Shown one piece after another: positions 31,841 through 33,341 of a stretch of 64,000 nucleotides of DNA. The translations under genes were made by a program, and so were the position numbers. The stretch covers positions 1 to 64,000 of the forward strand of contig NZ_AOIN01000056.1 in assembly GCF_000337135.1 (NCBI RefSeq), given 5' to 3'. The notes below the pieces were generated by a model, which did not search any database, was not told the DNA's origin, and worked only from the letters and a program-made list of their open reading frames with translations. How positions within the stretch are numbered: position 1 is the stretch's first letter; every line of letters starts with the position of its first letter. The stretch comes from Natrialba chahannaoensis JCM 10990. GTDB lineage: Archaea; Halobacteriota; Halobacteria; Halobacteriales; Natrialbaceae.

Positions 31841-32589
31841 ATGGACTGCCCAACCTGCGGGAACTCGCTCAGTACCGAACAGGGAATACGCCAGCACCAT
31901 ACAAAGGTACACAGCGAGCCACTCCCGAATCGAACCTGCACGGGGTGTGAGACGGAGTTTTACGATCCAAAGGCGCGCAGATCGTACTGCGACGACTGCA
32001 ACCCGAACGCCGGCTCGAACAACGGCAACTGGCGCGACGCGAAAGAGACACGACGTGCACCAACTGTGACGCGGACTTTTCGTACTACTCCTCCTCGAAG
32101 AAGGGCGTGTTCTGCCCCGACTGCGTCGCGGACGCAGACGGATTGCTCCCGGAGAACTACGCCGAAACCGTCGACCGAGTGACGGTCGCGTGTCGCGCCT
32201 GTGATGCGCCCCTCTCCGTTCGACCCGCCGCACGCGAGTCGCAAGAACGTGGATTCTTCTGTACACTCGAGTGCTATGGTACGTGGCTCTCTGACAACGT
32301 CGTCGGACCGGCCCATCACCAGTGGGAGGGTGGACCGATCACGTATGGACAGGAGTGGTGGGCGGTTCGCCGGCGTGCACTCGAGCGAGACGACTACACG
32401 TGTCAACACTGTGGTGTCGACGCGGACGAACTCAGTCGGAATTCAGACGTGCATCATCTGGAGCCGGTTCGATCGTTTGACGAGCCTGCAGAGGCGCATC
32501 GGCTGAAGAACGTGGTGTCGCTCTGCCGACCGTGCCACAGACACGCAGAGGAGGGGACGATATCGGTCCGTCCTCGAGACAAAAAGTAA
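31841..32589 (+). pseudogene. HNH endonuclease with zinc-finger N-terminus, frameshifted
   Basis: Two overlapping frames make one protein. Frame one (31841-32182) begins MDCPTCGNSLSTEQGIRQHH, a C2H2-like finger, then a zinc ribbon (CTGCETEFYD ... YCDDCNP) and NNGNWRDAKE, and then turns to Arg/Thr-rich nonsense. The next frame, readable from about 32050, continues with TTCTNCDADFSYYSSSKKGV, further Cys pairs (ACRACDAPL, FCTLECYGTWLSDN) and a C-terminal HNH nuclease: YTCQHCGVD, DVHHLEPVRSF, NVVSLCRPCHRHAEE. One missing base at about 32042-32055 restores a protein of about 249 residues. It is either a recent frameshift or a sequencing error; the downstream half still looks under selection. Confidence 0.8.
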
Positions 32590-32631
32590 CACTATTGTGT
32601 AACGGCGCGCTATCCAGCGAGTGACGTGCGG

Positions 32632-32761
32632 AGTCCCGTGGTGGTGAGCGGTTCCAACGGAACCGCGATCCGCATGGGGCTTCGAACGGAGTGAGAAGTC
32701 CCGTGGTGCTGAGCAGTTCCAACGGAACTGCGAAGTACACGGGGTGACGAGTGAACGATGG
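32632..32761 (+). repeat. Two tandem 65-bp units with covarying hairpins, ending at the tRNA-Gln gene
   Basis: Units at 32632-32696 and 32697-32761 both start AGTCCCGTGGTG, the same 12 bases that begin the tRNA gene at 32762, so the tRNA starts exactly where a third unit would. Each unit has an 8-bp hairpin with an AAC loop (32648-32666 and 32713-32731). Within the stem a G-C pair in unit one is A-T in unit two, a compensatory change. An outer helix CCCGTG pairs with CATGGG in unit one (G-U) and CACGGG in unit two (G-C). After position 48 the units diverge. No protein-coding reading is convincing. Confidence 0.75.
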
Positions 32762-32864
32762 AGTCCCGTGGTGTAGTGGCCAATCATCTGAGCCTTTGGA
32801 CGTGTCCGGTTACGGCCGTCACGGAAGTGAGCTCAGGACGGCGGTTCGAATCCGCCCGGGACTA
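32762..32864 (+). tRNA. tRNA-Gln (UUG) with intron
   Basis: Acceptor stem AGTCCCG/CGGGACT with discriminator A at 32864; D-arm GTGTAGTGGCCAATCATC; anticodon stem TGAGC/GCTCA with loop CTTTGGA (anticodon TTG, Gln); T-arm GGCGG-TTCGAAT-CCGCC. A 30-nt intron (32800-32829) sits at the canonical archaeal position after nucleotide 37 and would be cut by the splicing endonuclease. CCA is not encoded. An intron in tRNA-Gln(UUG) is known from other haloarchaea. Confidence 0.93.
32800..32829 (+). other. Intron of tRNA-Gln (UUG)
   Basis: Thirty bases lie between G37 (32799) and A38 (32830). Removing them joins CTTTGG to AGCTCA and restores a 7-nt anticodon loop on a 5-bp stem. The flanks can form the bulge-helix-bulge recognised by the archaeal endonuclease; the exact bulges were not folded computationally. 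Confidence 0.8.
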
Positions 32865-32943
32865 TTTCTGTCGCGAGCAAACCCGCGAGTGACGAATACG
32901 TCCAGCGGATTCGAGCCCAGCAGACGAGAGGATTCGAGTCTGC

Positions 32944-32963
32944 GCGGTTCGAATCCGCCCGGG
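32944..32963 (+). repeat. 20-bp copy of the tRNA-Gln T-arm and acceptor 3' end
   Basis: GCGGTTCGAATCCGCCCGGG at 32944-32963 repeats 32841-32860 of the tRNA exactly, 103 bp apart. Duplicated tRNA 3' ends are typical att-site footprints of integrases, although no integrase gene is present here. GGATTCGAG is also repeated just before it. Confidence 0.7.
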
Positions 32964-32970
32964 GCCATGA

Positions 32971-33341
32971 CAGACGGTCATACTATTATCACAACATAGT
33001 GTTACTTACCAACGATACGCCCGTTGACTCCCCTACTCTATTTCTGCCCCTATTCAAATGATGGAATAGATATAAATCAACGACGCTCTCGAGTGGCCAC
33101 TCTCGACACCGATCGCTACACAACGAAACCTGCGATGAGACGGTCTGACAGTCAACTCTCTCGTGACGGACAGACGAACGACTCAAACGAGCGAACGGTG
33201 AGCAGCCGCCGAACTCGCGTCTCGAACACAGATGTTCCGGACTATGTTTCCGACTAACACGGTCCGATAATGGATTTATTCGGTTTCCCATCACGCATTT
33301 CCATACACTATTGATTATAATAGAGGGTGTATGCTTCCTGT
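32971..33341. other. Intergenic region between tRNA-Gln scar and the liv operon
   Basis: The A+T content rises (CATACTATTATCACAACATAG near 32980-33000). A 77-codon frame at 33024-33257 lacks halophilic composition and translation signals, so it is not called. A TATA-like TGGATTTATTC near 33271 could serve the liv operon. Confidence 0.4.

Follow-up and report, generated by a model that had tools for sequence, protein, structure and literature searches.

The intron-containing tRNA-Gln(UUG) gene of Natrialba chahannaoensis JCM 10990 (contig NZ_AOIN01000056.1; the window, i.e. the whole stretch analysed, comprises its first 64,000 nucleotides) is directly preceded by two tandem 65-nt units, each of which is a single hairpin whose outer stem joins a tRNA-like 5′ arm, the first 7–9 bases of the adjacent tRNA, to its own complement as the 3′ arm. 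Judged from comparison of haloarchaeal genomes, these units look like an undescribed RNA family with evolutionarily kept pairing, and we commit ourselves to the broad reading that they are transcribed acceptor-mimic leader hairpins maintained at the RNA level. With about even confidence, we hold the more specific proposition that the hairpins are transcribed as part of the pre-tRNA leader and most probably either take part in tRNA 5′ maturation or have been made harmless to it.

In the window, exact copies of AGTCCCGTGGTG at positions 32632, 32697 and 32762 mark out two 65-bp periods, the second of which runs up to base 1 of tRNA-Gln, with the first 12 nucleotides of the tRNA repeated at the head of both units and with zero gap between unit 2 and the gene (Table 1). 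The preliminary description, made from the letters alone, had reported this 12-base sharing and exact period, and TRF agrees with it in finding a 65-bp array of 2.2 copies at the site; the term '5′-end duplication array' that it offered is also true as a description of origin. Units 1 and 2 score 77.6 and 70.9 bits, respectively, with our covariance model R1. The tRNA-Gln itself was not called in a default ARAGORN run and was called once introns were permitted; its intronless relatives read CCTTTGGAGCTCAGG. Presence of the intron varies within one genus, some relatives having it and others not, and tRNA-Gln loci with the alternative promoter described below are intronless in 19/19 cases.

Table 1. 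Features of the tRNA-Gln locus, in window coordinates.
Feature	Position	Strand	Details
Promoter-like box (type A), conserved	32582..32599	+	AAAAGTAACACTATTGTG; recurs at family tRNA-Gln loci
Unit 1, acceptor-mimic hairpin	32632..32696	+	5′ arm 32632-32640; 3′ arm 32673-32681
Unit 1 inner stem	32648-32655/32659-32666	+	GCGGTTCC/GGAACCGC, 8 bp
Unit 2, acceptor-mimic hairpin	32697..32761	+	5′ arm 32697-32705; 3′ arm 32738-32744
Unit 2 inner stem	32713-32720/32724-32731	+	GCAGTTCC/GGAACTGC, 8 bp
tRNA-Gln(UUG) gene, intron-containing	32762..32864	+	ARAGORN with introns; Rfam RF00005, 45.6 bits
tRNA-Gln intron, about 30 nt	32800..32829	+	ARAGORN; boundary ambiguous by 1
3′ unit: short hairpin and long hairpin	32865..32967	+	Repeats D3 and I1

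Inward of the outer stem, the hairpin continues with a bulged G, four weak pairs, tandem G·A/A·G pairs, an 8-bp stem and a 3–4-nt loop, the tandem GA/GA being present in 33/37 and 36/37 units. The paired change from G-C to A-T that had been noted in the 8-bp stem between the two window units is indeed a double change; the outer-stem change put beside it, where unit 1 has G-U and unit 2 has G-C, is also present, but it is one-sided and no more than compatible with pairing. The units have an acceptor-like stem only, with no T-arm or T-loop, and the Rfam tRNA model RF00005 matches tRNAs alone and never the units, both in the window and at Gly and Gln loci of other genera. Several known motifs were considered for this fold. 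A kink-turn would need a 3-nt bulge on the 5′ side of the tandem GA, which is missing, and is rejected; by inspection only, an H/ACA-like guide is rejected on the absence of an apical kink-turn and an inconsistent ACA box. The BHB substrates of the archaeal splicing endonuclease are a structured motif in pre-tRNA and pre-rRNA, and the window tRNA-Gln is intron-containing, as in H. volcanii (PMC7714728), but the consensus fold of the units has a 1-nt bulge and tandem G·A pairs in place of the two 3-nt bulges with an intervening 4-bp helix of such a substrate (hBHBh′).

The selected RNA structure that the preliminary description had read from covariation would be weakly founded on two copies, and it is recurrence in 37 distinct units that supports it. 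When these were aligned by MAFFT, independently of structure, 90.7% of cells were paired and two-sided changes were seen in 12/21 pairs, a value as high being obtained in 0/500 shuffles; cells with two-sided changes numbered 56 against a shuffled mean of 19, and a control in which the 3′ partners were slid gave far lower values. On the tRNA-sense strand, G-U exceeded A-C by 100 to 19 (2,038 cells in 125 distinct rows of an alignment fitted to the model). The inner stem alone gave 19 G-U versus 5 A-C in the same set, and the unfitted MAFFT alignment pointed in the same direction (43 versus 10). In all these counts rows and cells share descent, so that the numbers overstate independence. Since a DNA palindrome gives no strand bias, this excess argues for constraint at the RNA level, and a DNA palindrome kept by template switching is disfavoured by it. 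Recurrence in independent genomes and compensatory covariation, which together characterise a structured, selected RNA family, are thus both observed.

The units also follow the tRNA that they precede, 101/126 being identical to nucleotides 1–7 of their own tRNA and 25/126 not. Units before tRNA-Gly begin GCGCCGGTGGTGAGC and the tRNA-Gly itself GCGCCGGTGGTCTAG, and where the tRNA starts GCGGCGG, GCACCGG or GTGCCGG the 5′ start of the unit is identical in each case. The 3′ arms shift to match: CGGCGC for Gly and CGCCGC, CGGTGC and CGGCAC for the three other starts, respectively. A 5′ copy could be kept in step through gene conversion or duplication, whereas for a 3′ complement to track it, either the pairing must be under selection or some mechanism must template the arm. 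This behaviour bears on the proposal that the units are scars or landing sites of an integrase- or casposon-like mobile element at tRNA 5′ ends, with target duplication of tRNA nucleotides 1–12. The observed copy-X-copy-X-tRNA order is what would result from successive insertions that each duplicated a 12-bp target, and the inner stems are alike at different tRNA genes; however, the 3′ arm of X varies with the tRNA, as that of a fixed mobile sequence would not, no integrase lies next to the window site, and the strand-asymmetric wobble suits RNA pairing and not DNA. Integrases also use 3′ ends, and their scars normally duplicate the tRNA 3′ end. An att remnant would be such a duplicated 3′ end flanking an element with an integrase, whereas the window has 5′-end copies at 65-bp spacing with zero intervening genes. 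A simple integration remnant, as earlier suggested, is therefore unlikely for the 5′ units, and we consider the mobile-element proposal very improbable.

Homologues were found in many genera by covariance-model search, against the possibility, allowed for at the outset, that the structure would have none elsewhere. R1 matched 80/125 family genomes (E<=0.05) and 219/392 order genomes (E<=0.01) and, among 295 genomes sampled across the phylum, every match at E<=1e-4 lay within the order; R1 E-values are rough, and the model, being trained on Gln units, may miss other types. Across Halobacteriales, nearly all R1 units lie directly 5′ of tRNA-Gln, tRNA-Gly(CCC/UCC) or, rarely, tRNA-Thr; at 37 of 38 loci retrieved from outside the Natrialbaceae Gln site, tRNA-Gln or tRNA-Gly is directly downstream, the remaining locus being a minus-strand match behind tRNA-Pro. 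A fixed core pattern, scanned over 84,980 prokaryote genomes, yielded 46 loci in haloarchaeal records (one a MAG labelled only 'Euryarchaeota'). A tRNA follows in 44/47 core-pattern matches: Gly(CCC) in 16, Gly(UCC) in 12, Gln in 14 (two of them called Glu by ARAGORN) and Thr(CGU) in 2. The three exceptions are L199, a unit without a tRNA, L215, where the tRNA-Gly is broken by N, and L235. Neither L199 nor L235 has an intact tRNA 3′ of its unit core, and L199 has a T-arm-like remnant close by. The inner stems GCAAATCC and GCAGTTCC are shared across several families, at Gln, Gly and Thr genes. Haloarchaea that can be cultured and have units include Haloarcula (e.g. Haloarcula vallismortis), Natrinema (e.g. 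Natrinema mahii), Haladaptatus and Halogeometricum (e.g. Halogeometricum limi). In a generic search of all tRNA genes for 5′-end copies, the background of 8-mers is high (null 49/1874 to 128/1798), and the scattered 'UP' matches that it gave at Arg, Val, Asn and Met genes are left unclaimed.

Within the Natrialbaceae, the tRNA-Gln start was located in 123/125 genomes and 90 loci were read besides that of the window. Each locus has 0, 1, 2 or 3 unit copies, always between the tRNA and a promoter-like box, CGAAAAGTAACACTATTGTG. The median distance from this box to the first AGTCCCG, whether of a unit or of the tRNA, is 44 nt with no unit, 43 with one, 50 with two and 43 with three; in most loci that lack units, 42–50 nt separate the type A box from the tRNA, and in loci with 1–3 units it stands 42–61 nt before the first of them. 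Units, clean or degenerate, occur at 41/64 loci with a type A box versus 0/19 with a different box. Lying between promoter and tRNA, they are expected in the primary transcript and would be transcribed with the tRNA as one RNA. The family of leader hairpins beside tRNA genes that had been envisaged is thus supported by position, recurrence and covariation, and co-transcription is predicted from promoter position.

Units are missing from many related genomes, even within one genus (3/7 same-genus genomes are without them and use the other promoter), and are therefore not essential; degenerate units, e.g. L048, L050 and L084, also occur. A copy number of 0–3, often nil in close relatives, and such degenerate units would be expected of non-adaptive tandem repeats. 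In this account, slippage or unequal recombination copies a segment made up of the tRNA 5′ end and a palindromic spacer, and only self-folding variants are tolerated upstream of a tRNA; the pairing would then have no positive role and would reflect purifying selection against variants that interfere. It also fits such repeats that, in silico, one arm alone perturbs Gln acceptor folding while removing both is nearly neutral. On the other hand, one architecture with its inner stems recurs over several families at Gln, Gly and Thr, units are not found at other tRNAs in the genomes surveyed, and orthologous units 1 and 2 persist long within a genus. Unit 1 is 92–94% identical to unit 1 of same-genus loci and unit 2 is 86–100% identical to unit 2, compared with 65–71% between units 1 and 2 within one genome (71% for the window pair); like-position units being more alike than neighbours, the array predates these species and has not been homogenised. 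Neutral repeats constrained merely against interference are a serious rival, although one that we judge somewhat unlikely.

When 32 Gln arrays were folded together with the 20 nt that natively precede them, the mean acceptor-stem probability was 0.82 for the native sequence; shuffling the 3′ arm lowered it to 0.40 and shuffling the 5′ arm to 0.44, whereas shuffling both left it at 0.76. As single-arm shuffles lower the value and the double shuffle brings it near native, the model suggests that in Gln the arms neutralise each other. An apparent destruction of the acceptor stem by native leaders is an artefact of folding from unit 1 without the native upstream bases. Neutralisation was not replicated in 26 tRNA-Gly units (native 0.40; shuffled 3′ arm 0.49, 5′ arm 0.27, both 0.61) and is thus supported for Gln arrays only. 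Native leaders reduce acceptor pairing in these tRNA-Gly units, and competing pairings are predicted in some arrays, as in unspliced L031 (unit-tRNA 0.95, own acceptor 0.00). Both would suit a regulatory switch in which the leader sets the share of pre-tRNA folding productively, the 5′ arm of the unit pairing with the tRNA 3′ strand and the tRNA 5′ strand with the 3′ arm of the unit. In most Gln arrays with native upstream bases, the tRNA nevertheless reaches its correct fold (mean 0.83 to 0.86), equilibrium folding leaves aside co-transcriptional order, tRNA modification and high salt, and we know of no ligand or signal for a leader switch; we regard such a switch as improbable.

Returning to a role in 5′ maturation, stepwise handling by RNase P is the most likely, though putative, action. 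Arrays would have grown via tandem duplication of the tRNA 5′ end together with a hairpin, and each 5′-end copy would be locked in its hairpin, as it would otherwise capture the 3′ acceptor strand of the tRNA. The locked unit would present an acceptor-stem-like helix where RNase P works, the leader would probably be trimmed unit by unit, and the released 65-nt pieces would be stable small RNAs. Against this explanation, the units are without a T-arm, the part that RNase P and tRNase Z normally use. RNase P is known to cut where the acceptor stem begins (PMC4326828).

The nearest precedents for the leader units are the t-element and 'partial tRNA' remnants. The Haloferax volcanii t-element, a tRNA-like element upstream of 5S rRNA, is processed by tRNase Z and acts as a processing signal, and both RNase P and tRNase Z are described as acting on t-elements (PMC4326828, which cites Hoelzle et al. 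2008 and 2012). The t-element resembles the leader units as a structured tRNA-like element in haloarchaeal precursor RNA, directly 5′ of a stable RNA, whereas the units precede tRNAs, copy the 5′ end of that tRNA, stand in tandem and, in place of an acceptor stem with a T-arm, have an acceptor-like stem that the Rfam tRNA model does not match. Haloferax gibbonsii LR2-5 contains remnants of partial tRNAs, as well as integrated elements that have duplicated tRNA 3′ ends; there, too, part of a tRNA is copied beside the complete one (PMC7921747), but the 3′ part is duplicated, whereas the leader units duplicate the first ~12 nt, upstream in the leader, with a tracking complementary arm. Rfam release 15 gave only RF00005 at tRNAs (window region to E=5; Gly/Gln loci of other genera at gathering), and a description of the units was not found in the open-access literature. 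Archaeal tRNA leaders are usually regarded as short throw-away sequence; an order-wide, tRNA-tracking leader element with kept pairing would make it worth asking how pre-tRNAs fold, how RNase P chooses its substrates and where tRNA-linked repeats come from, and may bear on 'partial tRNA' annotations currently read as integration scars.

A related but separate phenomenon is found downstream of tRNA genes, where the last part of the 3′ unit in the window (32944-32967) copies the tRNA 3′ end. In the long hairpin of 3′ units, the 3′ arm is the tRNA end (a T-arm/acceptor 3′ copy) and the 5′ arm its complement, often in tandem (L101-L128, L245-L304). With the ends of other tRNAs as control, copies of the last 18 nt of the tRNA were found downstream of 19/44 tRNA genes in this genome (control 8/1874), 21/43 in a Haloarcula-type genome (control 18/1798) and 8/25 in the partly sampled Haladaptatus genome (control 2/578); in the two genomes with nearly complete survey coverage, 3′ units thus follow ~45% of tRNA genes. 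The frequency of these copies adds to the case for a mobile element, as do the Haloferax gibbonsii partial tRNAs beside full copies and integrated elements duplicating tRNA 3′ parts (PMC7921747). A separate downstream 3′ copy could be compatible with an integration remnant; the regular architecture of the 3′ hairpins is not an obvious outcome of integration. That haloarchaea give particular tRNA genes self-tailored leader arrays acting in 5′ maturation or pre-tRNA output and, with the 3′ arrays, possess a general, undescribed two-sided tRNA-end-mimic system is a tentative extension that we think rather unlikely.

Two further observations concern the flanks of the window locus. An inverted 17-nt copy (88%) of the promoter box (32584-32600) lies 3′ of tRNA-Gln at 32991-33007, placed as if for antisense transcription, the chance of such a copy being ~0.1 by rough estimate. 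Directly 5′ of the locus is an HNH endonuclease gene (PF01844; 31841-32589) with a zinc-finger-like N-terminal part in a different frame (31841-32182), which suggests a frameshift, and this HNH-tRNA-Gln neighbourhood is found again in many genera.
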